Notes under the pieces: generated by a model
Databases searched by the model: none
Told to the model about the DNA's origin: nothing
What the model saw: only the letters and a program-made list of their open reading frames with translations
From: Longimicrobiales bacterium
GTDB taxonomy: Bacteria; Gemmatimonadota; Gemmatimonadetes; Longimicrobiales; Gaopeijiaceae
Reading direction: 5' to 3'
Assembly (NCBI GenBank): GCA_951828585.1
Contig: OX639991.1
Location: 496,001 to 560,000, forward strand
DNA: 64,000 nucleotides
Made by a program: the position numbers and the translations under genes
Part shown: piece after piece, positions 3,808-20,976 of the stretch
How positions within the stretch are numbered: position 1 is the stretch's first letter
Layout: the number at the start of each line of letters is the position of its first letter

Positions 3808-4082
3808 GGGGTCTACCGGTTCGGGGGGCGGCAGCAAGACATCCCCGCGTCACTCCGGCCAACGCGCCTCAGATCCATGCTATCGATGCTGGGCCGCGAT
3901 CGGAACGCCCGCAACCTCGGTCCGTCATGGCCCCGCGCCCCATGGGCACGAGCACCAGCGGGCCCCGACCCGCTTCGCTAGCACCTGCGGACAGCAGCAG
4001 ACCCTGTCTACGCTCGCCGGTCGCAGAGCATCCGCTCCGCGATCCCGGTTGGCAACAACAGAGATCGCACCTGTGCGAGCTA

Positions 4083-4298
4083 CTACAGTCGAGAGAAGTT
4101 ATATGCATCTCTGATCTCTTGGTTGAAGTACTTGCCCCTTGACTCGCATTGCCGAAACTCATCGAACACCCACTCGTCCACAGCGTCATACACGTACGTC
4201 GCCCCTGTCTTGAGAAAACGTACATGCAACTGCCTCGCGTCCTTGTCGTACCCCACCGCTTCAATGTTCGACGACTCCACATAATGCATCTCAATCAT
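4083..4298 (-). CDS. KTSC domain protein, third gene of the SIR2-HerA operon
   Basis: This 71-residue protein matches the small KTSC domain throughout: VESSNIEAVGYD near the N-terminus, LHVRFLKTGATYVYDAV in the middle and RGKYFNQEIRDAY near the end. KTSC domains occur alone or attached to phage and defence proteins, and their role is not settled. I chose the ATG at 4298 because it overlaps the HerA stop as ATGATTGA (8 bases), a sign of coupled translation; the longer reading from 4340 would lie inside HerA. The neighbourhood suggests a regulator or sensor for the SIR2-HerA pair, which is inference. The 284 bases from its stop to the methylase ATG hold no gene that I recognise. Confidence 0.8.
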   Translation of the reverse strand: MIEMHYVESSNIEAVGYDKDARQLHVRFLKTGATYVYDAVDEWVFDEFRQCESRGKYFNQEIRDAYNFSRL

Positions 4299-6162
4299 GG
4301 CTGTTGTTACCTTCCTCGTTGTTATGGTGTGATTCACCATTAGGCACGGTTTGTTTTCTCCATCCAGCTACTGCGTCTGAATATAGTTGTCGATCTGGCC
4401 TGGCGCCCTCCTGCCACACTCCCGGCAGCCTTGGGTCGTCACCAACCGGTTTGTGTCGTGCGCGGCGAATCCGTACTCGCGATGGTATCGGCATCACTGC
4501 GCCCACGAACAATCCTTCACCCGTTCGCAACGATGAAAGTTGCTGTACAAGCCCACCAAGCTCGTCAGGTAACGACGCGCCCACGATTCCCCTGTCAGCG
4601 CTGTTAGTAGTACGCAAGGCGACGATTGATCCGCATTGACTCAATGCAGCACGCGCAATGTCCGACGGTCGCTGGGTGACCAACATAAGGCCCGTACCGT
4701 ATTTCCTGCCTTCCTTCGCAATCATCGACACAGTACGATGGGCCGGTGACTCCTTCCCCCGCGGCACAAACAAATGTGCTTCATCTAGGACAACCAACAA
4801 TGGCTGCTCTCGGCCACCAATTGCGAGGTTTTGACCCCAGAACAGAACATCATAGACAATCCGCAGCACGGTGCCGACAATTGTAGGCAATACTTGCGAC
4901 GGGACAGCTGACACGTCCAGTATCGTGATCGGACGACTGTGCCCTACCCACGCTGCCACCAGCGCGTCGATATCAGTCTCTATCTTGCCATCACGATCCG
5001 GCGAAAAGCCGCCGCCCGGCCTGAATAGAAAGGAATACCGATTGTCCCGTAACCGACTGCGCATGAGATCGAGGTGCCGCTCGATGTTTCGCTTCTTTCG
5101 ATTCATGTATGGCGACTTGTTGTAAGGACTGGCAGCTGGATAGACGTCGGAGGTCAGCGTCTGCGGGTCGCCCCGCCGTTCGCGCTCGCACGCGTTGTCA
5201 TCTGATTGATTATTCGACTGTGTAAACGTGCGCCTTTCAAAACTATCGAGATCATACCACAGTGTCTCGATGCTAAACGGTATCGGCGAGTCGGCAGTCA
5301 GCGCTTCGACGGGGGGTGGTATTCGCAGGAAGCTGGATGCCTGAGTCTTCATGTCAAGGATCTTGTCTCTAATAGCTACTTCGTGGTTTGGCTGGAGTTC
5401 TCCGAGCGTAAGCATCTGCAGCTCGCGAAAGGGAAGCGCCCAGAACGGAACACACAATGACCGCTTGCCCGCTATCTCCTCAGGCTCAACGCGGAACACC
5501 TTTGCGTAATCGTCCAACGCAGCACCGTATTCTCCGTGCGGATCAATAACGAGTGCCCGAGCCCTCGGGAGGCTGCTGTCCGCGACAGCCTCAAGCAATA
5601 CAGAAACCAGATTCGATTTCCCGGCGCCCGTGGAGCCCACAATAGCGCAGTGGCGACTTACAAGACCCGCAATGTCGACATCTGCCGAAATGTTCGATGT
5701 TCCGGCAATGGTGCCTACGGAGATTCCGCGCTGCGAGTCCTGCCTTGAGCCGTAGATCGTTCTCGCGTCACGATTGGTCACAATGTGGACTTCATCGCCG
5801 ACAGTAGGATACTGGCTCACACCCCTTTCAAACTCTCCACCAAGCGCTTCCCCAAACAACATTACGGTCATCCAGCGGTACCCCGTGAGCTCCCGCTCCA
5901 GTGTAGTGTCAGCCAACGATCCTTCAGAAACCGCACCGGCAATGGCTGCTGGTATCGCATCGGCGCCAGTCTGCGTACACACTGCGTAAATGTCTGTGTA
6001 GCCGATCGGCAGGCGTACAAAACTGCCAATTTGACCAACGCGATATGACTCGCCACCGACCAATAACAGAGTGGACGGCATGTCGTCACGCAATCGAACA
6101 CGAACCGTTGCGCCGGCAACTGACGCGACTCGACCTATATATGTCGGAGCAGAGAGCGACAT
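4291..6162 (-). CDS. HerA-type hexameric DNA translocase/ATPase (DUF87)
   Basis: A 623-residue HerA/FtsK-superfamily ATPase. An N-terminal beta-barrel (HAS-barrel) precedes Walker A GSTGAGKSN at 176-184. Walker B LLVVLDEAH is at about 455-463, followed by the sensor motif MLVTQRPSDIA and a conserved Arg-rich segment. In known Sir2-HerA defence, HerA rings assemble with SIR2 and license NAD hydrolysis during phage infection. A low-complexity, polar stretch at about 310-350 looks like an insertion. The start is one base after the SIR2 stop (TGA G ATG), so the two are translated together. Codon usage and GC content are visibly lower than in the cox genes next door, suggesting horizontal transfer. 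Confidence 0.92.
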   Translation of the reverse strand: MSLSAPTYIGRVASVAGATVRVRLRDDMPSTLLLVGGESYRVGQIGSFVRLPIGYTDIYAVCTQTGADAIPAAIAGAVSEGSLADTTLERELTGYRWMTVMLFGEALGGEFERGVSQYPTVGDEVHIVTNRDARTIYGSRQDSQRGISVGTIAGTSNISADVDIAGLVSRHCAIVGSTGAGKSNLVSVLLEAVADSSLPRARALVIDPHGEYGAALDDYAKVFRVEPEEIAGKRSLCVPFWALPFRELQMLTLGELQPNHEVAIRDKILDMKTQASSFLRIPPPVEALTADSPIPFSIETLWYDLDSFERRTFTQSNNQSDDNACERERRGDPQTLTSDVYPAASPYNKSPYMNRKKRNIERHLDLMRSRLRDNRYSFLFRPGGGFSPDRDGKIETDIDALVAAWVGHSRPITILDVSAVPSQVLPTIVGTVLRIVYDVLFWGQNLAIGGREQPLLVVLDEAHLFVPRGKESPAHRTVSMIAKEGRKYGTGLMLVTQRPSDIARAALSQCGSIVALRTTNSADRGIVGASLPDELGGLVQQLSSLRTGEGLFVGAVMPIPSRVRIRRARHKPVGDDPRLPGVWQEGARPDRQLYSDAVAGWRKQTVPNGESHHNNEEGNNSHD

Positions 6163-6163
6163 C

Positions 6164-7321
6164 TCAGTCCCTTTCTGTTATGGATTCAATGAATCGACAG
6201 AACACCGCAAAATCTCCGATCCTCACCTCAACTTCGGTCGAAGCGTCTGAGCCGCTGGAAGACTCGATGACGTTAGATAGTATAGCTGGCACTGCAGAGG
6301 AGTGCCACGGAGCGTGACGCCCGCTGAGTACGCCCGTCTGAGGGCCAATTACGATCAGATTACGATGCCTGCGTGCTTGTCTGAATAGATGACTATCCGT
6401 GGGCTCCTCCGCGAATTGGAGAGCATAGATGTGGGTTCGCGGTCGATTCTTCAGTGCCGTGAACATTAGGTCGTTGATGTGTTCGTCACTGAAACTGAAT
6501 CCACAGATGACCAATACAGCATCTTGTTGGTTCAAGAACCAGATAAGGCGATCGCGGAAAGCCACATAGGGCTGTTGTCGCGACTCGTCGTACTTCTGAA
6601 ACGACGGATAGATCATCTCCCCGTCGCCTACAGTCCCACCCCGTACGATGACAGATCGATGCCCGCAAGTTATTCGTCGCCACGCCACAGATCCATGCAT
6701 TTTCCACAACCTGGACCACATGGCACCCGGCTGGGCCTCTGGGTCTCTAAGGCTCTCGGGGAAGAAGAACGGCCGGTGGCTCCCGACAAAACCGTCATGT
6801 AATGGAACACGCTCCAATTCCATTCCATGTTCAAGCAACACGTCATAGTTTACGGTAAAGACTTCGACCGGCCGACGGTGCGACGATCGCGATATCCACT
6901 TGGCAAACTGCCGATGCGGGAAGCTTTCCGGAATCAAGGAGATGTCGGGCGTGACAATGCGGGCAATCGCCTTACGCGTAGCGCAGTCTAGCTTCTTGAC
7001 ATCCTCTCTATTCAGTCCTGACAGCTCATCGGAATCACTCATAGCATCTATCATTGCATATAGACGCGACAAGATGTCCTCGATATTGCCCTCACGGCAG
7101 TGACTGGCAATCGAGTCCCATGCGTGGGCAAATTTGTTGCCCAGCGCTTGAGCGGCATTCTTACACGTCGCAGTCATCCCTTTAACGGTTGGAATGAGTG
7201 CGACATCGTCCACCCGCACACTGGATGATGTGCCAGCTCCGAAGAGGAATGCGATGGGCTTGTCGTGCAGCGCCAGGTGATTTCGCAGTTCGTCTAGCGT
7301 CTTGACGGGATCGTGTGTCAC
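6164..7321 (-). CDS. SIR2-like NADase, effector of a Sir2-HerA defence system
   Basis: About 385 residues when read from the GTG at 7321. The SIR2 fold is clear: GAGTS at 28-32 (nucleotide binding), TVNYD at 156-160 with the conserved Asn, KMHGSV at 207-212 with the likely catalytic His209, and GFSFSDEHIN at 274-283. Defence SIR2 proteins hydrolyse NAD to arrest an infected cell. An alternative ATG at 7351 would add ten residues encoded by a poly-C/poly-G tract, so I prefer the GTG. The gene leads the operon SIR2-HerA-KTSC. Its upstream side is the abrupt change from lower-GC to very GC-rich DNA. Confidence 0.9.
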   Translation of the reverse strand: MTHDPVKTLDELRNHLALHDKPIAFLFGAGTSSSVRVDDVALIPTVKGMTATCKNAAQALGNKFAHAWDSIASHCREGNIEDILSRLYAMIDAMSDSDELSGLNREDVKKLDCATRKAIARIVTPDISLIPESFPHRQFAKWISRSSHRRPVEVFTVNYDVLLEHGMELERVPLHDGFVGSHRPFFFPESLRDPEAQPGAMWSRLWKMHGSVAWRRITCGHRSVIVRGGTVGDGEMIYPSFQKYDESRQQPYVAFRDRLIWFLNQQDAVLVICGFSFSDEHINDLMFTALKNRPRTHIYALQFAEEPTDSHLFRQARRHRNLIVIGPQTGVLSGRHAPWHSSAVPAILSNVIESSSGSDASTEVEVRIGDFAVFCRFIESITERD

Positions 7322-7455
7322 CCCCCTCACCCCCCCACCCCCTCCGACCACCTCTCAACTGCCCCCCACCCCACGCTCAGACCACCCCCCCGCACCTCCC
7401 TCACCCACCCCGCCCCGGCTACCATCACCACGCTCATTCGGCCTCTCCACCCCCG
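7322..7455. other. C/G-run spacer between coxL and the SIR2 operon
   Basis: The 134 bases between the coxL stop and the SIR2 start are almost all C on the plus strand, with several runs of 5 to 7. On the minus strand, which carries the SIR2 leader, this gives closely spaced G runs that could form G-quadruplexes. No gene, ordinary -10/-35 pair or clear stem-loop terminator is visible. It marks the island boundary. Confidence 0.5.
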
Positions 7456-9822
7456 TCACTTAGCCACCCCCCTCGCATTCAACACCCCCCAAACCCGATC
7501 CGGCCGAATCGGAATCTCCATATGCGTCACCCCCAGGTGCGCCAACGCATCCACCACCGCATTCGCAATCGCAGGCGGCGCCCCCACCGTAGCCGACTCC
7601 CCCACCCCCTTCGCCCCCAGCGGATGATGCGGCGACGGCGTCACCGTATGCCCGGTCTCCCACGCCGGCGTCTCCACCGCCGTAGGCACCAGATAATCCA
7701 TAAACGACCCGGCCAGATTATTCCCGTCCTCGTCGTAGGTCATCTCCTCATACAGCGCCGGCCCCAGCCCCTGCGTCAGCCCCCCATGGATCTGCCCCTG
7801 CACGATCATCGGGTTGATGATGTTCCCGCAGTCATCCACCGCCACGAACCGCCTCACGCTTACCTCGCCCGTCCCCCGGTCGATGTCCACCACGCAGATA
7901 TACGTCCCGAACGGGAACGTCAGGTTCGGCGGATCATAGTAGTTCGTGGCCTCCATCCCCGGCTCCATCCCCTCGGGCAGGTTCGTATACGCCGCGAACG
8001 CGCAGTCCTGGATGCTCACCGACTTGTCCGGCGCACCCTTCACCGAGAACGTGCCGGGCTCCCACTCCAGGTCCTCCTCCCCCACCTCCAGCAGATGCGC
8101 CGCGATCTTCGCCGCCTTCTCCCGAATCTGCCGCGCGGCCATCACGCCCGCCGCGCCCGCCGTCGGCGTCGACCGGCTCGCGTACGTCCCCAGCCCATAC
8201 GGCGCCGTGTCCGTGTCCCCCTCCTCCACCTGAACATGCGCCGCCGGCAGCCCCAGCTCCTCCGCAATAATCTGCGCGTACGTCGTCTCATGCCCCTGCC
8301 CCTGCGACTTCGTCCCGAACCGCGCGATCGCCTTCCCCGTCGGATGCACCCGCACCTCGGCCGAATCGAACATCTTGATGCCCAGGATATCGAAGTCCTT
8401 CGACGGCCCCGCCCCCAGCACCTCCGTGAAGCTGCACACCCCGATCCCCATCAGCTCCCCCCGCTCGCGCTTCTCGGCCTGCTCCCTGCGCAGGTCGTCG
8501 TAGCCGATCATCTCCTTGGCCTTGTCCATCGCGGCCTGGTAATCACCGCTGTCGTACTCCCAGCCCAGCGGCGAGTGGTACGGGAACGCCTCCTTCGGAA
8601 TGAAGTTCTCCTCGCGCAGCTGCGCCGGGTCCTTCCCCACCTTGTGGGCCAGCGTGTCCACGATCCGCTCCAGGCAGTGCACGGCCTCGGTCACGCGGAA
8701 CGAACAGCGGTACGCGACGCCCCCCGGCGGCTTGTTCGTGTAGACCGCGTCCACCTCGGCGTAGGCATTCTCCATGTCGTACGAACCCGTACAGATCGAA
8801 AACAGGCCCGCGGGGAACTTCGACGGGGCCGCTTGGGCGTCCGCGTAGCCGTGGTCCGCCAGCGTCTTGATGCGTAACGCCCGGATCTTCCCACTCGCGT
8901 CCGCCGCGACCTCCGCGTCCATGTGATAGTCCCGCGCGAAAGAGTCCGCCTGCAGGTTCTCCATCCGGTCCTCGATCCACTTGACCGGCTTGCCGAGCAC
9001 GACCGACGCCGCGATCGCGATCACGTAGCCCGGGTACACGGGGACTTTCCCCCCGAACCCGCCGCCGATGTCGGGCGACACCACGCGGATCTTCTCCTCG
9101 GACAGCCCCACGTGCCCCGCTACCAGGGCCAGCACGGTGCGGATCGCGTGCGGGGCCTGCGTGGTCATGTACACGGTCAGGTGTCCCTCGACCGGGTTGA
9201 AGTCGGCCAGGCAGCCGCACGTCTCGATCGACGCCACATGAATGCGCGGGACGTGCATCTTCTCGCGCACCACCACGTCGGCCTCGTCGAAGATCTTGTC
9301 CGTCGCCTCCTTGTCGCCGGCCTCCCAGTGCCAGATGAGGTTGTCCTCCTGGCCCTCCTTGTCGGTGCGCAGCACGGGGGCGTCGTCCTCGAGCGCCTTG
9401 AAGGGGTCCATGACCGGGGTCATCGCCTCGTATTCGACCTCGACCGCGGCCACGCCGTCCGCAGCCGCGTAGCGCGACGTCGCGATCACCCCCGCGACCT
9501 CCTGGGCCTGGTACATGACCGTGTCGGTCGGCAGCACCATCTGGGTGTCAGACATGAGCGTCGGCATCCAGTGCAGGTTGTAGGCCTCGAGGTCCTTGCC
9601 CGTGAGCACGGCGAGCACGCCGTCGATTTCGAGCGCCTTCGAGGTGTCGATGTTCACGATCTTCCCGTAGGCGATCGGGCTGCGCACGATGTCGAGCCAC
9701 AGCATTCCCGGACGCGTGAAGTCGTCGATGTAGTTGCCCTTGCCCTGCAGGAAGCGCGGGTCCTCCTTGCGCTTCATGGAGTGGCCCATGCCGCAGATCT
9801 TTGCGGAAGTTCTCGGTGCCAT
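7456..9822 (-). CDS. coxL: Aerobic carbon monoxide dehydrogenase, large (Mo/Cu) subunit, form I
   Basis: 788 residues from the ATG at 9822, which overlaps the coxS stop by one base (TGATG). The xanthine-oxidase fold is complete. The motif AYRCSFR at 370-376 has the Cys (373) that binds Cu in the Mo-S-Cu centre. This motif defines form I, true CO-oxidising enzymes; form II homologues have AYRGAGR. GGGFGGK at 253-259 and GVGES with the catalytic Glu742 are also present. The enzyme oxidises CO to CO2 and passes electrons via coxS and coxM to the respiratory chain. A longer reading to 10170 overlaps coxS and was rejected. It is the last gene of coxE-G-M-S-L. Confidence 0.95.
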   Translation of the reverse strand: MAPRTSAKICGMGHSMKRKEDPRFLQGKGNYIDDFTRPGMLWLDIVRSPIAYGKIVNIDTSKALEIDGVLAVLTGKDLEAYNLHWMPTLMSDTQMVLPTDTVMYQAQEVAGVIATSRYAAADGVAAVEVEYEAMTPVMDPFKALEDDAPVLRTDKEGQEDNLIWHWEAGDKEATDKIFDEADVVVREKMHVPRIHVASIETCGCLADFNPVEGHLTVYMTTQAPHAIRTVLALVAGHVGLSEEKIRVVSPDIGGGFGGKVPVYPGYVIAIAASVVLGKPVKWIEDRMENLQADSFARDYHMDAEVAADASGKIRALRIKTLADHGYADAQAAPSKFPAGLFSICTGSYDMENAYAEVDAVYTNKPPGGVAYRCSFRVTEAVHCLERIVDTLAHKVGKDPAQLREENFIPKEAFPYHSPLGWEYDSGDYQAAMDKAKEMIGYDDLRREQAEKRERGELMGIGVCSFTEVLGAGPSKDFDILGIKMFDSAEVRVHPTGKAIARFGTKSQGQGHETTYAQIIAEELGLPAAHVQVEEGDTDTAPYGLGTYASRSTPTAGAAGVMAARQIREKAAKIAAHLLEVGEEDLEWEPGTFSVKGAPDKSVSIQDCAFAAYTNLPEGMEPGMEATNYYDPPNLTFPFGTYICVVDIDRGTGEVSVRRFVAVDDCGNIINPMIVQGQIHGGLTQGLGPALYEEMTYDEDGNNLAGSFMDYLVPTAVETPAWETGHTVTPSPHHPLGAKGVGESATVGAPPAIANAVVDALAHLGVTHMEIPIRPDRVWGVLNARGVAK

Positions 9823-10316
9823 CAGTTGTCCTCCCCCGCGCCGTCGGCGGCGGTTTTGGCGGCGGCGTACTGGACCGCCTTGACGATGTTCACGTATCCG
9901 GTGCAGCGGCAGAGATTCCCGGAGATGGCCTCGCGGATCTCGGCTTCGCTGGGGTTTGCATTGGCGGCGAGCAGCGCGGTCCCGGTCATGAGCATGCCGG
10001 GGGTGCAGAAGCCGCACTGGAGGCCGTGTTCCTGCATGAAGCCCTCCTGGAGCGCGTTCATACCGTCGGCGCCGGCGAGCCCTTCGACCGTGCCGATCTC
10101 GGCGCCGTCGGCCTGGACCGCCAGCACGGTGCACGACTTGGTGGGCACGCCGTCGACGAGCACGGTGCACGCGCCGCAGTGCGTGGTGTCGCAGCCGATG
10201 TGGGTGCCGGTGAGCGCGAGTTCGTCGCGGATGAGGTGGACGAGGAGCAGTCGGGAGTCGACCTCGCGCGTGTGCGCCTCGCCATTGACGGTGACGGTGA
10301 CGTTGTGTCTGGCCAT
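9822..10316 (-). CDS. coxS: CO dehydrogenase small subunit, two [2Fe-2S] clusters
   Basis: 164 residues. The plant-type [2Fe-2S] cluster is bound by Cys42, Cys47, Cys50 and Cys62 (motif [17 protein letters not shown]). The second cluster uses CGFC at 101-104 and CRC at 136-138 in the all-helical C-terminal domain. It carries electrons from the Mo-Cu site in CoxL to FAD in CoxM. The gene lies four bases after coxM and overlaps coxL by one base, so all three are co-translated. Confidence 0.96.
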
Positions 10317-10320
10317 GTCC

Positions 10321-11271
10321 CTACCCTCCTGCCGGCGTGCGGGCGGCGGCGCGCTCGAGCGCCTTGTGGATGGCCCTCGTGGTCAGCACGCGGGCCATGT
10401 TTCGCTTGTAGTCGACCGAACCGCGGCGGTCGGCGACGGGATCGGTGGCGTCGGCGGCGGCCTGGGAGGCGGCGGCGATCAGTTCGTCGTCGGAGGGCGT
10501 CCTGGCGATCGCCTCGCGGACGCGCCGGAAGGCGCCACGGAGGCCGCTGTGGTCGCCGAAGTGCTGTCCGGTGAGCACCTCCTCGGCGGCCGAGGCCCGG
10601 ATGGGCGCCATGCCGAGGTTGGTGAGACCGATGCCGGCCTGGGTGACAGTGCCCTCCTCGTCGAGCGTGAGATGCACGGCCGCGCCCGCGACCGCGTAGT
10701 CGCCCACCTTGCGTTCCAGCTTGAGGTAGGCGCCGCCGGAGTGTTGGCCGGGCGATGGAATACGAATTTCGGTCAGGATCTCGCCGGGCTGAAGCGCAGT
10801 CATGAAGAGGCCGTGGAAGAAATCGTCCACACCGATGCTGCGCTCGCCGTCCGGGCCGGTTGCGACCATGGTGGCCCGCAGCGCGATCATGGTGGCCGGG
10901 TGGTCGTTGGCGGGATCGCCGTGCGCGACGTTGCCGCAGATGGTGGCGCGGTTCCGCACGAGCGGGTCGGCGATGACCTTGGCCGTGTCGAGGAGGATGG
11001 GGTAGCGCGCGGCTACGGTGGCGTTCTCCTCGAGGGCGGTCTCGGTGACGAGCGCGCCGATGCGCAGGTATCCGCCCTCTTCGGAGATCGAATCCAGGCC
11101 GGGAACGCGTCCGATGTCCACGATGTTCGCGGGCGTCGCCAGCCGCAGCTTGAGCATCGGCAGCAGGCTCTGGCCGCCGGACATGACCTTGGCGTCGTCG
11201 AGCCGGCCAAGGAGCGTGAGCGCCTCCTCCAGGCTGCCGGGAGCGTGGTAGTCGAATGGTGGGGGGATCAT
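10321..11271 (-). CDS. coxM: CO dehydrogenase medium subunit, FAD-binding
   Basis: 316 residues of the CoxM/XdhB FAD-binding family. The two FAD pyrophosphate motifs are GGQSLLP (32-38) and TICGN (110-114). The subunit accepts electrons from the iron-sulphur subunit and passes them to quinone. The ATG has a strong ribosome site, GGAGG, eight bases upstream. A 39-bp tandem dyad (11285-11323) lies immediately in front, so expression of the structural genes is probably controlled there as well as from any upstream coxE promoter. Confidence 0.95.
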
Positions 11272-11780: not shown

Positions 11781-12967
11781 GAGTGCTCCAACATCGGCAG
11801 CAGAGCCTCCAGGGACTCGAGGTTGTGAGCCGGTACCAGGTTGTCGATGTGCGGCAGCGCGGCCCTCATGCCTCTGGCCTCGGGGCGGTACCGCGGATCG
11901 CCCATGAGCGGGTTGAGCCAGATGACGCGGCGCGCCCGCCGCCGGATCAGCAGCAGGGCCTCTTCCAGTACGTCCGTGGCGCCCCGGTCGAGGCCGTCGC
12001 TGAAGATCAGGACCGATGTATCACCCGCAACCACCTGGCGCAAGTAATGATCGGCGAATTCGCGCAGGCACTCGCCGATCCGCGTGCCGCCCGACCAGTC
12101 CTCGACGTTGCGGGCAAATCGCCTCAGGGTGGCCGCCACGTTCCCCGCGGTGATCCAGGGGGTGAGCCGGGTGAGGGAGGTGTTGAAGGCGAAGACCTCC
12201 GTCCTTGGCGCAACGCCGCCCAGCGAGAGCACGAAGGTCAGCAGAAAGCGCGTATAGGGGTCCATCGAGCCACTGGTGTCACAGAGAACAACCAGATGGG
12301 GGCGTTCCACCGCCCGGTCGCGGCGCGCAAGGTCGACCAGTTCGCCACCCCGGGCGAGCGAGCGCCGGAAGCTGCGCCGGATGTCGACGATCCGCCCCCG
12401 CCTGGACGGCGCCAGCCTACGGCTCCGCCGCGTTGCGATTCTCCTAACCACTTGTGAGAGAAGCCGTTCCATTTCGGCCAGCTCATCCTCCGTACAAGAC
12501 TCGAAGGACTTTTGCCGCAGCACCGCGCGGGGGCTGTAGCCGGGGCGTCCATCGTCGGACTGAACCGGTTCGTCAGCCTTAGCCGCCCGCTCTTCCGCCA
12601 GCCGGCGGCTCAGCGTCTTCAGTGGGTTGCCGTTACCGGGCCAGGTGGGGGGCGCGCAACGGGGGCTGCGCGGTCGGCTGCGTTGCCCGGAGGACTTCCC
12701 CAGCCGCCAGCAGCGTTCGAAGGCCGCGTCGAAGATTTCCCAGGCCCGGCGTTCGATCTTGAGACTGGCCCGCAACCCCACCCGGACCTCCTCGCGGTCC
12801 CCGATGTCCACATGCCCCAGCGCCGCCGCGGCGTCGATCTCGTCGCCGGGGGTGACCGGCACACCCGCCTCTCGCAGCTCGCCCGCGAATCGGGCAAGAT
12901 GGGCGACCAGATCGCGGGCGCCCCCTTGCGGGGCGGCAGCCCCGTGTATTAGCTCGTTGGGGACCAT
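11777..12967 (-). CDS. coxE: CoxE-like von Willebrand factor A protein
   Basis: 396 residues. The N-terminal half is a charged CoxE region. The C-terminal half is a vWA domain with the metal-ion motif DTSGSM at 229-234 and a later Thr/Asp pair. With the MoxR ATPase CoxD, CoxE-type proteins help assemble the Mo-S-Cu site. Here the partner coxD is not adjacent but about 6 kb away, beyond the frd operon. The promoter region is shared with the divergent Spondin_N gene at 13032. Confidence 0.88.
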   Translation of the reverse strand: MVPNELIHGAAAPQGGARDLVAHLARFAGELREAGVPVTPGDEIDAAAALGHVDIGDREEVRVGLRASLKIERRAWEIFDAAFERCWRLGKSSGQRSRPRSPRCAPPTWPGNGNPLKTLSRRLAEERAAKADEPVQSDDGRPGYSPRAVLRQKSFESCTEDELAEMERLLSQVVRRIATRRSRRLAPSRRGRIVDIRRSFRRSLARGGELVDLARRDRAVERPHLVVLCDTSGSMDPYTRFLLTFVLSLGGVAPRTEVFAFNTSLTRLTPWITAGNVAATLRRFARNVEDWSGGTRIGECLREFADHYLRQVVAGDTSVLIFSDGLDRGATDVLEEALLLIRRRARRVIWLNPLMGDPRYRPEARGMRAALPHIDNLVPAHNLESLEALLPMLEHS

Positions 12968-13031
12968 GTTACGTTTTTTGGAGAATCTGAGCGTCGCTCA
13001 CCAACGGCAACCCGGAAAGGATGGAACCATC

Positions 13032-14936
13032 ATGGATCACAGCACATCGGTAAGATACTCCTCACTCAGACGTCCCGGAGGAGTGGGACGCTTCCTGTCG
13101 CTGACGGGAATCGTACTTATCGGCGCGCTCGCGACGGCGTGCGATGAGGATCCGACGCCGCCGGTCGAGGGGTCCGTCAGCGGTACGGTGACGCTCGAGG
13201 GAGCGGCGCTTGGCGGTGTCACCGTCGATCTCTCCGGCGTTGGCGGCAACCAGTCCGCGACGACGGGCGGAGACGGCAGCTACAGTTTCTCCAACGTGAT
13301 CGAGGGATCGTACACGGTCACGATCAGCGGCTACCCGTCGGACACCGAGTTCGCCGAGCCAACCGCGTCGGTCAGCATTGCTCCTTCTCAGCGGAGCCCG
13401 ACGGCGGACTTCGCCGGAACGTACATCCGGACGGCGAGCGTGATGGGCTCGGTGACGGTCGAAGGCATGGGACTCGGCGGAATCATGGTCGCCCTGACCG
13501 GGACGGAATCCCAGACCGGGACGACCGCCGATGACGGCAGCTTCTCGTTCAGCAACCTGCGGATGGGCGAATACACGGTGGAGATGTCGGGATGGGATCC
13601 GGCCCGTCATGTGTTCGACAACACCACGGAATCGTTCTCCGTCAGCGTCGGCCAGCAGCAGATGGTCGACTTCATGGGAACCAGGAGGGAGTACGGCTTC
13701 CAGGTCATGATCGAGAACGTGGCGGTGCCCTATCCCTTCTCCGCCAGCGGGCATTTCGCGGTTCCGGTCGGCGCGATGGAACCCGGACCCCTCCTGCCGG
13801 GCAACGCCTACGCCTTCGAGTTCGAGGCGGGACCGGGAAACAACCTGTCCTTCGCCACCAAGATGGTGCATTCCAACGATCTCTTCTACGCGCCGGGTCC
13901 AACGGGCATCCCCCTCTGGGACGGCCACGAGCAGATCACCGGCGACATCACCGACCAGATCCAGCTGTGGGACGCCGGCACCGAAATGAATGAGGAGCCG
14001 GGAGAGGGACCGAACCAGCCGCTGCAGGGCGGACCCGATTCCGGAGAGGCCGACCCCGACCCCAACGTGCGACTGGCCGACGATGAATGGGAGACCCTCC
14101 CCGACGTGGACTCCGTCATTCGTGTCACGCTCGAATCCACGGGCCCCACGACCTTCCGTGTCACCATCGAGAACGTGAGCCTCGATCATACGCTGGTTAC
14201 GGTCAGGGGCCTGTGCCTGGAGGTGCCGCTCCTACCGGGCGTCTTCGTCGTGCACCGCGATCCCAATCCGCTCTTCACGGTCGGCGAGCCCGACAGAGGT
14301 GACGGACTGGAGGGTCTGGCCGAGGACGGCAACATCGACATGGCCGCCGAGGCCGTACAGATGAGCACCGGGCTGTTCAACCTGATCGCGCCGGGAATCT
14401 ACGCCTCCCACGCCGACGCCGGCCTCCTGTTCCACCCGGGAACGACCGCGAGCCCCGGCGTCGAGGCCATGGCCGAAGACGCCGACCCGGCCATTCTGGA
14501 TGCCGAGGTAATGGCCGCCGGTGGATTCCGGACCGCCGGCGCCTTCACCGTTCCGGTCGGCGGCATGGCACCGGGGCCGTTGGACCCCGGTGGGACGTAC
14601 GCGTTCGAGGTGACCGCCGTGCACGGCGAGTACCTGTCGTTCGTCACCATGCTGTTCCAGACCAACGACCTCTTCTTCGCCCCCCCACCGGAGGGCATAG
14701 CCCTGTTCCCCGACGATCAGCCGCTGAGCGGCGACGTTACGAGCATGGTCATGCTCTGGGACGCGGGCACCGAGGTCAATGAAATGCCGGGCGTCGGGTT
14801 GTTCCAGGCCCCCAGGCAGCTGGCGCCCAATACGGGCATGGACGAGATGGGCATGGTCCGGCTCCTGGACGACGAGATGTTCACCTACCCCGAAACGGGC
14901 CACGTGATCAGGGTGACGGTCACCCCGATCGGCTAG
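13032..14936 (+). CDS. Exported lipoprotein: two CarboxypepD_reg-like domains and two Spondin_N domains
   Basis: 634 residues, starting at the ATG after AAAGGATGG. A hydrophobic signal ends at ATACDED, a weak lipobox (Cys about residue 37). Two similar beta-sandwich repeats follow, each with SG/MGSVTVEG...DGSYSFSN/DGSFSFSN...YTV (about 45-110 and 135-200). The rest is two Spondin_N-like repeats with (V/L)IENV, FEFEAGPGN or FEVTAVHGE, NDLF(Y/F)AP and MLWDAGTE(V/M)NE. The first is followed by FVVHRDPNPLF and GLEGLAEDGN, the classic Spondin_N tail. It probably lies on the cell surface, and its ligand is unknown. It is transcribed away from coxE. Confidence 0.85.
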   Translation: MDHSTSVRYSSLRRPGGVGRFLSLTGIVLIGALATACDEDPTPPVEGSVSGTVTLEGAALGGVTVDLSGVGGNQSATTGGDGSYSFSNVIEGSYTVTISGYPSDTEFAEPTASVSIAPSQRSPTADFAGTYIRTASVMGSVTVEGMGLGGIMVALTGTESQTGTTADDGSFSFSNLRMGEYTVEMSGWDPARHVFDNTTESFSVSVGQQQMVDFMGTRREYGFQVMIENVAVPYPFSASGHFAVPVGAMEPGPLLPGNAYAFEFEAGPGNNLSFATKMVHSNDLFYAPGPTGIPLWDGHEQITGDITDQIQLWDAGTEMNEEPGEGPNQPLQGGPDSGEADPDPNVRLADDEWETLPDVDSVIRVTLESTGPTTFRVTIENVSLDHTLVTVRGLCLEVPLLPGVFVVHRDPNPLFTVGEPDRGDGLEGLAEDGNIDMAAEAVQMSTGLFNLIAPGIYASHADAGLLFHPGTTASPGVEAMAEDADPAILDAEVMAAGGFRTAGAFTVPVGGMAPGPLDPGGTYAFEVTAVHGEYLSFVTMLFQTNDLFFAPPPEGIALFPDDQPLSGDVTSMVMLWDAGTEVNEMPGVGLFQAPRQLAPNTGMDEMGMVRLLDDEMFTYPETGHVIRVTVTPIG

Positions 14937-15145
14937 GCAGAGACGAGGCCCCGCGGAGGCTCGTTGACGCGGGGAAGCTGGAGGTGGTCGGTGAAGGCCG
15001 GGCCACCCGATACCGCGTGGCAGGCGGGGAATCCGTCCTGGCACATCCTCTTACGCCCGTCCATCTCTGCCCGCAGGCAGGATATATCCCGTACCTGCAA
15101 CCGTTCGCGGACGTGAACAAGGCCGATCTGGCCCCGGTGTCCTAA
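14937..15145 (+). pseudogene. Remnant of a Fic-type protein with C-terminal winged helix
   Basis: An open frame without a start codon reads RRLVDAGKLEVVGEGRATRYRV, shortened here as LVDAGKLEVVGEGRATRY: the usual closing segment of winged-helix domains on Fic and similar regulators. It continues into a stretch containing YLQPFADVNK, which resembles the Fic-family FxDVNKR region, then stops at TAA. The order of the pieces is not that of an intact protein, so this is a rearranged fragment. It overlaps the 3' end of frdD by a few bases on the opposite strand. Confidence 0.45.
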
Positions 15146-15492
15146 ATCCTCCAGAGAAGCATCGCCGCCCAGATGGTCGCGGCCAGGGCGCCGCCGTAGC
15201 ACGGCACCTTGAGCAGTCCCGAAAAACGCCTGAGTCCCAGATCCATGAGCGTGTGGCGGATGCGGTGTCCGCAGTGGACGAAGGAGAGCGCGAGTACGCC
15301 GAGCAGCGCCAGCTTCACGGGCCACCACCCCACCGCCGCCGCAAACTGCGCCGTCCGCTCGGCGGCCACCGCCTCGTCGCCGGCGGGCAGAAGAAACCCC
15401 GTCACCAGAACGAAGGCCGGCACGAAGAGCGCCGCCATCACGCCCCCGGCCGAAAACAGGGCCCACCAGAACGCTTCGCCGGAACGCTTCAT
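15142..15492 (-). CDS. frdD: Fumarate reductase membrane anchor subunit D
   Basis: 116 residues with three predicted membrane helices (about 10-35, 55-80, 95-116) and the FrdD-like segment SFVHCGHRIRHTLMDLG. With FrdC it anchors the catalytic dimer and forms the quinone site. It starts by ATGA overlap with frdC. The length matches the E. coli-type separate FrdD (about 119). Confidence 0.87.
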   Translation of the reverse strand: MKRSGEAFWWALFSAGGVMAALFVPAFVLVTGFLLPAGDEAVAAERTAQFAAAVGWWPVKLALLGVLALSFVHCGHRIRHTLMDLGLRRFSGLLKVPCYGGALAATIWAAMLLWRI

Positions 15493-15875
15493 CTGAGCAC
15501 CCACCAGACGATCACGGCCGTCACCGTAAGCCACGGCCCGTACCCCATGACCACGGCGGCGAGCGGCGCGGGCAGCCTTTTCTCGCCAAGGTAGATCGGC
15601 ATCGCCTGCGGCACGGCCGCGAACCAGGTGATCGAGTGCCACGCGGCCGCGACCAGCGCGATGACGTGCGCCGCCATCCAGCCCGGCCCGCTCACAGCGC
15701 CCAGCCATTCGGCGAAGGCCGCCTCGCCGCCCCCGAGTCTGCCCAGCGTAACGAGGAACACGATCAGGTAGCCGGCCACGAAGAAGCTGGTGAACTCGCG
15801 CACCATGAAGCGCACGTAGCCCGGACGTTCGAGGAACCAGGCCCAGCCGTGGGGGCGGTGGTACTGCCCGCTCAC
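15489..15875 (-). CDS. frdC: Fumarate reductase membrane anchor subunit C
   Basis: 128 residues with three membrane helices. The motifs YVRFMVREFTS and HSITWFAAVPQA line up with YRFYMLREGT and LHTKTWFELAP of E. coli FrdC. It starts at a GTG that overlaps the frdB stop as GTGA. Two short anchor subunits place this enzyme in the Frd class rather than the single-cytochrome class. It could run as fumarate reductase or as succinate dehydrogenase. Confidence 0.88.
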   Translation of the reverse strand: MSGQYHRPHGWAWFLERPGYVRFMVREFTSFFVAGYLIVFLVTLGRLGGGEAAFAEWLGAVSGPGWMAAHVIALVAAAWHSITWFAAVPQAMPIYLGEKRLPAPLAAVVMGYGPWLTVTAVIVWWVLR

Positions 15876-16630
15876 ACGCCCGCTCCTTTCGGCGCGACAA
15901 ACCGCTTGAAATACTCCTGCGCCCCCACCGCCTTCGCCTGCTGGATCGCGCCTGCCGGGTCCACGTGCTTCGGACACACCACCGTGCACTCGCCCACGAA
16001 CGTGCACCCCCAGATCGCCTCGCCCACCAGCATGACGTCGAGGCGCTCGGACTGGCCTTGGTCGCGCGAGTCCTTGTTGTAGCGGTGGCCGAGCGCGAGC
16101 GCGGCGGGCCCCAGGAACTCGTCCTCGTGGCCGGCGACGGGACAGGCCGCGTAGCAGAGCATGCAGTTGATGCACATCGAGTACTGCTTGTACTGGGCCA
16201 GCTCGGCGGGGGACTGCAGGTACTCGCCGCCGGAAGTGTCGTTCACGTCGTCGCGGATGATGTACGGCTTGACTGCCTCCAGCTTCTCCATGAAGCCGTC
16301 CAGCGAGACCACCAGGTCCCTCTCGACGGGGAAGTTCACGAGCGGCTCGACCTTGATCGGGCGCGGGTAGTAGTCCTTCAGGAAGGCCGCGCAGGTCAGC
16401 TTCGGGTCGCCGTTGACCATCATACCGCAGCTTCCGCACACGCCCATGCGGCAGCTCCATCGGTGCGTGAGCGACCCGTCGACGTGGTCCTTGATCCAGT
16501 TGAGGGCGTCGAGCACCACCCAGTCCTCGTCGTAGGGGACCTCGTACGCCTGGAAGCGCGGCTCGTCGTCGGTCTCGGGGTGGTACCGGAAGACCTCGAT
16601 CGTCATGGTTTGTTGAGCGGACATGGTCAT
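15872..16630 (-). CDS. frdB: Fumarate reductase/succinate dehydrogenase iron-sulphur subunit
   Basis: 252 residues. [2Fe-2S] ligands are Cys60, 65, 68 and 80 ([10 protein letters not shown]). [4Fe-4S] ligands are in [11 protein letters not shown] (153-163) plus a later Cys, and [3Fe-4S] in [12 protein letters not shown] (209-219). It links the flavin in FrdA to the membrane quinone. The ATG at 16630 overlaps the frdA stop (ATGA); the longer reading to 16690 lies inside frdA and was rejected. Confidence 0.95.
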
Positions 16631-18435
16631 GTGGATTCGCTCTTCTTGAGTCCCGAGCCGGCTCCGTAGGTGCGAGCTCCAGGCGGCCACTTGGTGATCG
16701 TGACGGGCTTGTACTCGATTCGCGGTGGCGATCCGTCATTCTGGTGGAAGGCCATCGAATGGGCGAGGAAATCGTCGTCGTTGCGCTCGGTGTGGTCGAG
16801 GCGCTGGTGGGAACCGCGCGACTCGGTGCGCTCGACCGCCGAATGCGCCATGGCCTCGGCGACGTCCAGCAGGGATCCCAGCTCGAGAGCCGCCGTGAGT
16901 TCGGTGTTGAAGCTGTTGGTGTGGTCGTCGAGGGTGACGTTGCGGTAGCGTTCGTGCAGGTCGGCGATGGTCTCGCACGCGGCTTGCAGCGAGTCGGCGT
17001 TCCGGTAGATGCCTGCGCCGTCTTCCATGGCTTCGTGGAGTTCGGTGCGGAGGGTGACGATGCGTTCCCCGTCCTTGCGGGAGGTGTCGAACCAGGCGCG
17101 GCGGATGCGGGCGCCCTCGTCCTCGGCCTGGGCCTCCAGATCCGGTACGTCGTAGTCGGGGTTGTCCATGGCGAAACGGGCCGCGTGCCTGCCCGCCTGC
17201 GCGCCGAAGACCAGCAGCTCGGTGAGCGAATTCGAGCCGAGCCGGTTCGCCCCGTTGATCGAGACGCAGGCGCACTCGCCGGCGGCGTAGAGCCCCGGCA
17301 CGCTGGTGGCCGAGTTGCTGTCGACGTCGATTCCGCCCATCACGTAGTGGACGACCGGGCGCACGGGGATCGGCTTGTACACGGGATCGATCCCGGCGTA
17401 GTTGCGCGACAGCTCCCGCACGAACGGGATCTTCTTGTCGATCTTGGCCTCGCCCAGGTGGCGCAGATCGAGGTGCACCACGTGCCCGTCCTTGGTCTCG
17501 ATGGTGCGGCCCGCCCACCTTTCCTTGATGAAGCACTGGCTGAGCCGGTCGCGTGGCCCCAGCTCCATGGCGCGTTTCTGCGGGTGCCGGGGATCGCTCA
17601 CGTCGAGCGCTTCGCCCAACTCGTAGTCCTGCAAGTAGCGGTAGCCGTCCTTGTTGACCAGGATGCCGCCCTCGCCGCGCGAGGCCTCGGTGATCAGGAT
17701 GCCCGTACCGGGGAGCCCCGTCGGGTGGTACTGGATGAACTCCATGTCCTTGAGCGCGACCCCGGCCCGATACGCCATTGACATCCCGTCCCCCGTCTTG
17801 ATCGACCCGTTGGTCGTGAAGGGGAAAACGCGCCCGGCGCCGCCCGTGCAGATGATCACCGCCTTGCCCAGAATCGCCCGGACCGTCCCGGTGCGGAGCT
17901 CGATCGCGGCGCAACCGCGGCAGCGCCCGTTGCCGTCGATCAGGAGCCGCGTTGCGAAATGCTCGTCGTAGCGGACGATGTTGCCGTACTTGAGCGTGGT
18001 CTGGAAGAGCGAGTGCAGCATGTGGAAGCCGGTCTTGTCGGCCGCGAACCAGGTCCGCTCGATCTTCATTCCCCCGAACGGGCGAACCGCGACGGACCCG
18101 TCGGGCTCCCGGCTCCAGGGGCAGCCCCAGTGCTCCAGCTGGATCATCTCGGTCGGAGCCTCGTTGACGAAGTATTCGACCGCGTCCTGGTCGGCGAGCC
18201 AGTCGGCCCCGCTGATGGTGTCGTAGATGTGGTCTTCGAGGCTGTCGTTCGGCTTGATCTTCGCCGCGGCCCCGCCCTCGGCCGTAACCGTATGGCTGCG
18301 CATCGGATAGACCTTCGACACGCAGGCCACCGAGAAGTCGGGGTTCTCCTGCGCGATCGCGATCGAGGCGCGGAGCCCCGCCCCGCCGCCACCGATGATG
18401 ATCACGTCGTGCTCGTGGGTGGTTCCGTGAGCCAT
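16627..18435 (-). CDS. frdA: Fumarate reductase/succinate dehydrogenase flavoprotein subunit
   Basis: 602 residues from the ATG at 18435, which gives the standard N-terminus before [13 protein letters not shown]. His48 in SHTVTAEGG is the covalent FAD site. [20 protein letters not shown] holds the catalytic Arg region, and [12 protein letters not shown] is the FAD-binding end. It interconverts succinate and fumarate. All four frd genes are joined by 4-base overlaps, so this is one translationally coupled operon. It splits the cox locus in two. Confidence 0.95.
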
Positions 18436-18597
18436 CGTGGGGGGGTTCGTCCTGGTGGCGGGGTTGGAGGGGGTCGTGGTTGGAGAAGCGCGGCTTCCGA
18501 CGCTATGCATTCGACGAAGAGCCGAAACAGGTTAGCGCCGGAGATAGCCGGGATCAAGGTTCCGCCATCGCGCCGTTTGTTGAGGGGTTGCCTCGGT

Positions 18598-18846: not shown

Positions 18847-19839
18847 CTAGTCGGCGCCCCCACCGCCAGCACTACCGGCCAGCACCTGGGGCCCAGCCCC
18901 CGCCACCTCCACCAGCGCCCCCACCTCCCTCCCACCCAGTTGCAGCATGTCATGCCGATCCTTCACCAGGCACCCCAGGGTCTCGGTCGCCGTCTCGGCG
19001 TCCAAACGATCCCTGTGCAGGGTGATCAGCGCGCGTGCCCAGTCCAGCGTCTCCGCGACACCGGGCGGTTTCATCAGCCGAAGCCCCCTCAACTCCTGCA
19101 CGAAGCCGGTGATCTCGGCGGCCAGCCGATCCTCGATGCCCGGCACCTTCGCGCGGATGATCTCGACCTCCTTCTCGAAGGGCGGATGTTCGATGTACAG
19201 GTAGAGGCAGCGGCGGCGGAGCGCGTCGCCGATCTCGCGGGTGCGGTTCGAGGTCAGAACCACGAACGGCCGGTGGGTCGCCCGGATGGTGCCCAGTTCG
19301 GGGATGGTGACTTGGAAGTCGGAGAGAACCTCAAGCAGGAAGGCCTCGAAGCCCTCGTCGGCGCGGTCGACTTCGTCGATGAGGAGAACCGGGGACTTGT
19401 CCGGGACGGTGATGGCGCGCAGCAGCGGGCGCTCGAGGAGGAAGCGGCGGCTGAAGATGAGGTCTTCAAGGTCGTCGTGGGCCGGCCTGGTGCCTCCGTC
19501 GGCCGATCCAGCCATTGACTCGCCCGCCGCAGGGGCGCCCGCACCACGCCCGCCCTCCTCCGCCGCAATCCGCAGGCTGAGCAACTGCTTCTGGTAGTTC
19601 CACTCGTACAGGGCCGTGTTCACGTCGAGCCCCTCGTAGCACTGCAGCCTGATCAGCTCGGTGTCCAGCACCCCGGCCATGACCTTCGCGATCTCGGTCT
19701 TCCCGACCCCCGCGTCGCCTTCGACCAGGAGCGGTTTCTCCATTGCGCGGGCAAGGTGGACCGCGGTGACGATCGACGGCTCGGCGACGTAGTCGAAGCC
19801 GCGCATGTCGGCCTGCAGGCGCGCGATCTCGGGTCTCAT
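18847..19839 (-). CDS. coxD: CoxD-type MoxR AAA+ ATPase
   Basis: 330 residues. Walker A is GDAGVGKT at 41-48, Walker B LLIDEVDRAD, and sensor region VLTSNRTREIGDALRRRC. The segment after the first helix has a Gly/Ala-rich insertion (about residues 95-125) absent from most homologues. CoxD ATPases work with vWA partners such as CoxE to insert S and Cu into the CO dehydrogenase cofactor. It follows the XdhC/CoxI gene by 33 bases, and its proposed partner coxE is about 6 kb away. Confidence 0.88.
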   Translation of the reverse strand: MRPEIARLQADMRGFDYVAEPSIVTAVHLARAMEKPLLVEGDAGVGKTEIAKVMAGVLDTELIRLQCYEGLDVNTALYEWNYQKQLLSLRIAAEEGGRGAGAPAAGESMAGSADGGTRPAHDDLEDLIFSRRFLLERPLLRAITVPDKSPVLLIDEVDRADEGFEAFLLEVLSDFQVTIPELGTIRATHRPFVVLTSNRTREIGDALRRRCLYLYIEHPPFEKEVEIIRAKVPGIEDRLAAEITGFVQELRGLRLMKPPGVAETLDWARALITLHRDRLDAETATETLGCLVKDRHDMLQLGGREVGALVEVAGAGPQVLAGSAGGGGAD

Positions 19840-19872: not shown

Positions 19873-20976
19873 CTACACATACGCCGCCGGATCGGCCTCG
19901 AAGCGTGCGCGACACCCGGGGCAGCAGAAGTGCACGGTCTGGCCCTGGTAGGTGGATGAGGGCCGCGACCCATCGGCGGGGACGGTCATGCCGCAGACAG
20001 GGTCGGTGGCGGTTGCAGTTGCGCCTGCGGGAGTTTGGGCGTCCTTCCCGGCGGCCACCTCCCCGGCTCGCCACTCTGCGGCGCCCTGCTCTGCGGCGAT
20101 CGGCCCTTCCCTGTCCGTCGCTCCCGCCCGCGGTTCTCCCGCGCGCGGCTCCTCCGTATCCGGCTCGGCCACACCCGACCCGGTCCTCGCCAGCGCCACG
20201 ATCTCCGCCAGAATGCTGATCGCCACCTCTTCGGGACGCACGGCCCCGATATCCAGCCCGGCCGGGCCACGCACCTTCGCGCTACGGCTGCGGCACACGC
20301 CCCGGGCGGCCAGGTATTCGCGCACCTGGCCCATGCGCTTCGGCGAGACGACCACGCCCAAGTAGTCCGCGCGCGCGGCAAGAAGCTGCTCGACCGCGTC
20401 TTCGTCGCCCTGCCCCATGGTGGCCACGACGGCATACAGCGCGGCCCCGGGGGGACGCGCCGCGTACCGGGCGGCGAGCTGGCCATCGAGGGTCTCGACG
20501 CGGGTCCCAGTGGGGGCCTCACCCGAGTCCGCCGCCGCGGCCGCGTCTCCACCACCCGCCACCACGACCCGATAGCCCATTGCTTCGCCCAGCCGCGCCA
20601 CCGCGTCGGCGATCGGCGAGGCGCCGGCCACGACCAGACGGGGAGCGGGATACACCGGATTGATGTGCACTTCGACCTTCCCTTCGCTGCCGCAGGACAT
20701 GGGGACGGAGATGATGTCGCCGCGTGGTTCCGGAGAGCCGCCGAAGGCCAGCAGGCGCGGTTGCCGGTCCGCGAGCGACGCCATGGCGTGGCGGGTCACC
20801 TCGGGCAGGGTGCAACTGCCGCCGATCCATCCGTGGACGGTCCCGTCGGCGGTGACGACCGCGGTGTTGCCGGACGCCGCCGAGCTGGGGCGTTCCCGCC
20901 GGACCACGGTCGCTATCGCGTAGGGTGTCTCGTCGTCCAGCAGGCGCGCCGCGAGGCGGAGCAGGTTGCTATCCAT
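19873..20976 (-). CDS. XdhC/CoxI-family Mo-cofactor protein fused to a YHS domain
   Basis: 367 residues from the ATG at 20976. The XdhC part has GWIGGSC near the start, PMSCGSEGKVEVHI, a Rossmann segment (RLVVAGASPIADAVARL) and the conserved MGQGDEDAVEQLLAA and YLGVVVSPKR regions. After an Ala/Glu-rich linker, residues 325-367 are a YHS domain (DPVCGM, then HFCCPGC and FEADPAAY). YHS domains bind metal, often Cu. Together with CO dehydrogenase this suggests a role in loading the Mo-S-Cu centre, which is inference. It overlaps the MocA-like gene by eight bases. Confidence 0.87.
   Translation of the reverse strand: MDSNLLRLAARLLDDETPYAIATVVRRERPSSAASGNTAVVTADGTVHGWIGGSCTLPEVTRHAMASLADRQPRLLAFGGSPEPRGDIISVPMSCGSEGKVEVHINPVYPAPRLVVAGASPIADAVARLGEAMGYRVVVAGGGDAAAAADSGEAPTGTRVETLDGQLAARYAARPPGAALYAVVATMGQGDEDAVEQLLAARADYLGVVVSPKRMGQVREYLAARGVCRSRSAKVRGPAGLDIGAVRPEEVAISILAEIVALARTGSGVAEPDTEEPRAGEPRAGATDREGPIAAEQGAAEWRAGEVAAGKDAQTPAGATATATDPVCGMTVPADGSRPSSTYQGQTVHFCCPGCRARFEADPAAYV

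Follow-up and report, generated by a model that had tools for sequence, protein, structure and literature searches.

A YHS domain at the C-terminus of CoxF accompanies form I carbon monoxide dehydrogenases and may supply their copper

The window analysed here, a stretch of 64,000 nucleotides from a Longimicrobiales bacterium (Gemmatimonadota; contig OX639991.1, positions 496,001 to 560,000), encodes a protein of the XdhC family with a C-terminal YHS domain. Judging from its sequence, the protein is an ortholog of CoxF, and most likely it represents CoxF in an ancestral two-domain form, the copper-insertion chaperone of the Mo-Cu carbon monoxide dehydrogenase (CODH). The YHS tail is confined to clusters of form I CODH, the enzyme with a copper ligand, in every group sampled. 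We consider it probable that the fused protein is a Cu(I) donor for the maturation of form I CODH, with the tail supplying the copper. Copper delivery had been proposed in the initial annotation of this gene; the idea is strengthened here and made specific.

The coxF-YHS gene (19873..20976, minus strand) encodes 367 amino acids, with the ATG codon at 20974-20976 and the stop codon at 19873-19875. The reading frame is open back to 21069, and alignments with homologs begin near the ATG at 20976. All three domains score above the curated Pfam gathering thresholds: XdhC_CoxI (PF02625, residues 13-79, 20740..20940) with 56.8 bits (cut-off 24.3), the Rossmann domain XdhC_C (PF13478, residues 114-259, 20200..20637, also seen in structure search) with 87.2 bits (cut-off 29.7), and YHS (PF04945, residues 324-367, 19876..20007) with 43.2 bits (cut-off 30.3), all on the minus strand. 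A CxSxG motif (C95, S97, G99; 20680..20694, minus strand) lies between the two XdhC domains. The YHS domain is preceded by a low-complexity linker rich in A, G, E and P (residues approximately 268-320, 20017..20175, minus strand), delimited from the predicted structure. In the AlphaFold monomer the XdhC body (pLDDT about 95) and the YHS domain (pLDDT about 93) are both well folded and the linker is disordered (pLDDT below 50 at residues 268-275 and 283-317); in this model the YHS domain and the XdhC body do not touch. Structure search relates the body to the XdhC-type structures 2we8 and 3on5, and the same search with the YHS sequence found no significant relative. The predicted metal ligands of the tail, by analogy to the copper-responsive YHS domain of Mycobacterium phlei (PMC4626032), are D325, C328, C351 and C355. 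The fusion was found in at least ten phyla, and therefore it is neither a frameshift nor a chance artefact; the protein architecture given in the initial annotation is real. The closest named matches of the genome are from sponge or marine Gemmatimonadota metagenome-assembled genomes (MAGs).

The surrounding genes form a CO dehydrogenase cluster, as had been supposed, and its enzyme is of form I. The coxL gene (7456..9825, minus strand) matches TIGR02416, the model for the large subunit of form I aerobic CODH, with 1210 bits (cut-off 991) and contains the active-site motif VAYRCSFR (8696..8718, minus strand), in which the cysteine ligates copper (PMC4240915). It lies 10 kb downstream of coxF on the same strand. 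In the order of transcription, right to left, the region contains a MobA/MocA-like NTP transferase gene (PF12804, 20969..21691, minus strand), which overlaps the start of coxF by 8 bases, coxF-YHS, the adjoining coxD gene for a MoxR-like AAA ATPase (18847..19839, minus strand; 33 bases downstream of coxF), genes of succinate dehydrogenase/fumarate reductase (15142..18510, minus strand), a repeat protein gene on the plus strand, and then coxE (VWA_CoxE, PF05762, 11777..12967), coxG (COXG, PF06240, 11334..11780), coxM for the FAD subunit (10321..11271), coxS for the 2x[2Fe-2S] subunit (9822..10316) and coxL, all five on the minus strand. The form I cluster is thus split, with coxF-coxD set apart from coxE-G-M-S-L. 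The succinate dehydrogenase/fumarate reductase genes between coxD and coxE play no part in the mechanism. The same order, coxF-coxD, succinate dehydrogenase/fumarate reductase, coxE-G-M-S-L, recurs in related genomes (locus L047 and partly L054). The gene inserted into the cluster on the plus strand (12627-14936) encodes a protein with carboxypeptidase-regulatory-like and SdrD B-like repeats. On the other side, coxL is adjoined by DNA methylase-like, HerA-like helicase and SIR2-like genes (1684-7351) that resemble a defence island.

The complete genome of 4.47 Mb encodes three XdhC proteins, one of which carries a YHS domain; no other YHS domain is encoded in the genome. It also encodes several molybdenum hydroxylase large subunits. 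Four full-length subunits were inspected at the active site: one belongs to form I, and the other three have no copper-ligand cysteine. The single YHS domain of the genome resides on the CoxF of its single form I enzyme.

O. carboxidovorans carries two XdhC proteins, CoxF and CoxI, and the window protein had initially been named CoxI. This name does not hold. A rooted maximum-likelihood tree of 40 rows (IQ-TREE) places the window protein with CoxF of O. carboxidovorans, separated from CoxI and other XdhC proteins with support 100/97, and the CoxI row of O. carboxidovorans sits in the outgroup, which rules out a CoxI identity. The insertion that CoxI has between the two XdhC domains is absent from the window protein. 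It is 32% identical to O. carboxidovorans CoxF, and its CxSxG motif aligns with M107CPSHGTM, the suspected copper site of the latter. The distinction matters because coxE and coxF mutants of O. carboxidovorans yield CODH that lacks copper and has partly sulfurated Mo (PMC4240915). In the published model, which builds on these mutants together with short motifs for a copper site and a phytase, CoxF is proposed to supply the copper; M107CPSHGTM is one of the sequence motifs behind this proposal, and YHS is not mentioned (PMC4240915). The copper donor had been called poorly known in the initial annotation; this is not wholly so, since CoxF is already implicated genetically (PMC4240915).

Form I loci were collected by searching genomes for the DNA of the coxL copper-ligand motif and reading the flanks; neither XdhC nor YHS was used in picking them. 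The suggested link between the fusion and form I coxL is borne out by these loci. The tail is present on 45/45 complete CoxF proteins in Chloroflexota, where four further stretches have no complete CoxF owing to contig ends, and on 23/23 in Actinomycetota with the centre genome excluded, where three CoxF genes are cut and seven stretches have no CoxF. Among the 44 form I genomes of Gemmatimonadota, 39 have the tail, in 35 of these 39 on one contig with coxL. In G085, G185, G387 and G279 a contig end leaves no complete CoxF, and in G053 the protein is truncated. In Pseudomonadota the count is 1/9. A scan with two peptide patterns of the XdhC domain yielded 75 loci in about ten phyla. Almost all of them have the fusion and an adjoining form I coxL; most of the others are cut by contig ends. 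Plasmid records of Thermomicrobium roseum, the archaeon Natronorubrum bangense, Deinococcus, Paraburkholderia and Caballeronia contain the fusion beside a form I large subunit. Paraburkholderia xenovorans LB400 has two copies of fused coxF, each in a cox cluster (L096 and L097). Overall, 143 fused CoxF proteins lie on one stretch with form I coxL; in 143/143 cases both genes are on the same strand, and the median gap between the open frames is 21 nt. The seed of the CoxF model consisted mostly of fused proteins. Form I coxL without a CoxF gene in the 15-20 kb stretch read occurs at L229 and L230, two of the seven such stretches of Actinomycetota, and at L211. In Actinomycetota the genomes concerned hold further form I copies.

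Several apparent counter-examples were considered and rejected. Fused genes in Gemmatimonadota MAGs without form I coxL are mostly an effect of contig ends: in G045, G151 and G238 pieces of coxL with 83-94% identity are found at contig ends, and most other contigs terminate before the position of coxL. Two cases are not explained in this way, G247, where the contig runs on for 15.6 kb without coxL, and G192, which has a coxL fragment only. The coxL rows labelled "other" are not enzymes without copper, as the readable sites retain the cysteine (VSYRCSFR, VAYRCSLR, VAYRCSFM). In the G192 locus (L190, G192:C15) coxL is present as a C-terminal fragment and coxF-YHS is retained, with a long cysteine-containing linker. 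CoxL proteins of Gemmatimonadota MAGs are 92-95% identical across genera and families (G045, G151, G085, G279 and others), and contigs often break there, a pattern that points to recent transfer or to strong constraint.

As a control, 20 loci were anchored on the motif of form II, which has no copper ligand; all are from Actinomycetota. XdhC genes are present in 13 of them, and YHS on none (0/13). Within Actinomycetota the difference in tail occurrence between form I and form II gives Fisher p of approximately 4e-10, a descriptive value, as the loci are related by descent. Neither was YHS found on CoxI-type or other XdhC paralogs in form I loci; a single "frameshift" flag among these paralogs proved to be a decayed CoxF in L121. 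The initial annotation would have been refuted by the fusion being equally frequent at xanthine dehydrogenases, which lack copper; this is not what the form II loci and the paralogs show. One locus, L188 (G119:C7:40001-60000), contains a CoxF-type gene near coxD-, coxE- and coxG-like genes, and its large subunit has RGAGR with no cysteine. This CoxF-type gene has neither YHS nor CxSxG, and the genome G119 gave no form I match. Recorded under L188 and L151, this arrangement constitutes a natural negative control.

This distribution bears on two other possible roles of the tail. One possibility is a structural or docking module that binds zinc, iron or no metal and places CoxF on CODH, CoxD or CoxE. 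Treble-clef-like TRASH and YHS domains can bind other metals, such as Cd in the crystal of the L24e TRASH domain, and the YHS domain of toluene-4-hydroxylase binds none (both reported in PMC4626032). However, the tail is limited to the sole copper-requiring enzyme of the family, and form II enzymes and xanthine dehydrogenase mature without it; we regard the docking role as improbable. The other is that the YHS cysteines carry sulfur, as persulfide, for Mo sulfuration. It draws on the fact that XdhC proteins act in Mo sulfuration or protect it (PMC2997495), but xanthine dehydrogenase needs the sulfido ligand too and XdhC-type paralogs have no YHS, and the coxF mutant retains partly sulfurated Mo (PMC4240915). 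A sulfur carrier is therefore very unlikely.

The copper-responsive YHS domain of M. phlei has the ligand set D178, C181, C204, C208 (PMC4626032). Among 163 distinct fusions the corresponding positions are occupied by D or N in 161 and by cysteine in 161, 162 and 163 proteins, respectively, so that conservation at the four ligand positions is about 99%. The second cysteine of the FCC triple varies (113/163), in agreement with the ligand model for M. phlei (PMC4626032). The CxSxG motif is specific to CoxF: it occurs in 158/164 fused and 12/13 unfused CoxF proteins and in 0/51 other XdhC proteins. Fused CoxF proteins of different phyla are about 31-45% identical, and the non-ligand YHS columns vary. 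Some fusions have an additional CC motif, in the linker (L012, L027, L029, L190) or at the C-terminus (L067), possibly a further metal site. In Deinococcus sp. AJ005 (L013) the signature of the YHS fold is kept, and the aspartate and two of the three cysteine ligands are lost.

The fusion apparently has a single origin. The survey counts are not independent events because they descend from one old fusion, and common ancestry has shaped them in addition to selection. The tail might have no copper-tied function at all and have been kept by inheritance and shared transfer of the gene cluster; the apparent single origin, with co-occurrences that are not independent, is what such hitch-hiking would produce. 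We consider this extremely improbable in view of the ligands, which are retained at about 99% over the 163 sequences at inter-phylum identities as low as those above while other YHS columns vary, and of L188, where both the tail and CxSxG are lost and the enzyme is not of form I.

The tail-less proteobacterial CoxF proteins form a single clade (support 99, and 99/94, in two trees) within the fused lineages, as a sister to the fused proteins of Burkholderia and Dyella. Altogether the state of the tail changes three times: in this clade, in L188 and in the truncated L189. Since the outgroup root falls among fused lineages, loss is the better reading: the tail would be ancestral to CoxF, and a single proteobacterial clade would have lost it. 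Three members of this clade are named, Afipia, Maritimibacter and Pseudohalocynthiibacter, and the label "alphaproteobacterial" rests on them. The clade includes CoxF of O. carboxidovorans, the sole CoxF studied experimentally. No separate YHS gene was found in the clade within the stretches read. In L189 (G053:C46) form I coxL is intact and CoxF ends at DPACGC; either the YHS tail was lost recently in nature, or the sequence contains an error.

A mechanism consistent with these observations can be outlined. The XdhC body would dock onto folded apo-CODH, with the flexibly tethered YHS domain holding Cu(I) by Asp/Asn and three cysteines. Cu(I) would then be passed to Mo-SH and the CoxL cysteine, perhaps via the CoxF-specific CxSxG site, and CoxD and CoxE would act in the same maturation. 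CoxF of the studied proteobacteria may depend on the CxSxG site only or on a different source of copper; where the tail is lost, this site could serve as the remaining relay. In the broader version, a dedicated Cu(I) donor working from YHS through CxSxG to Mo-SH was the original design of aerobic CODH maturation, and the loading domain disappeared later from the proteobacterial lineage that has been studied; we hold this for an evenly balanced proposition. The domain would then have been missed because the only studied lineage had lost it. Several observations run counter to a donor role of the tail: a whole proteobacterial clade, including the sole CoxF tested in vivo, works without it, G053 has intact form I coxL with a cut CoxF, the YHS of Deinococcus sp. 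AJ005 is short of two cysteines, and in the predicted monomer the tail makes no contact with the rest of CoxF.

On the other hand, the tail could be a copper sensor or gate that allows CoxF to act only when copper is present and does not carry the ion. The sole functional study of a YHS domain describes a switch of this kind, a copper-dependent adenylyl cyclase (PMC4626032), and a tail dispensable in one clade is what regulation would predict. However, CoxF itself is required for copper insertion (PMC4240915), and thus a donor role can do without an additional partner. The genetic and sequence evidence does not distinguish between donor and sensor, and we consider the sensor rather unlikely, keeping the copper donor as the preferred reading.

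A role of CoxF in copper insertion had already been implicated by genetics; what is new is a conserved, separable domain of metal-binding type on most CoxF proteins. In the literature searched, where subscription journals are thinly covered, neither XdhC with "YHS domain" nor "YHS domain" with carbon monoxide dehydrogenase was found. The Mo-S-Cu site of aerobic CODH, an enzyme that removes atmospheric CO, has been described as unprecedented in nature, and the conserved tail provides a concrete part to assay for the open step of copper insertion. It may also help in producing active CODH in foreign hosts.

Among known systems, the chaperones of the molybdenum cofactor of CoxI/XdhC/PaoD type share with the window CoxF the domains PF02625 and PF13478 and the fold of 2we8 (a homolog of Rv0376c), but belong to the separate clade, have neither CxSxG nor YHS, and serve enzymes without copper or represent the second XdhC of the cluster. 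The cluster of O. carboxidovorans OM5 (Oligotropha/Afipia) is similar to that of the window in having coxMSL, coxD, coxE and coxG, and its CoxF is an orthologous XdhC-family protein with CxSxG and without the inter-domain insertion; it differs in having 280 amino acids and ending after the Rossmann domain, with no YHS. The YHS domain of the M. phlei adenylyl cyclase, which confers copper-specific activation, is likewise C-terminal, is tethered by a flexible linker and has the ligand set of an aspartate and three cysteines (PMC4626032). However, there it is fused to a cyclase and acts as a copper sensor, whereas the YHS domain of the window is fused to a maturation protein of a metal cluster.
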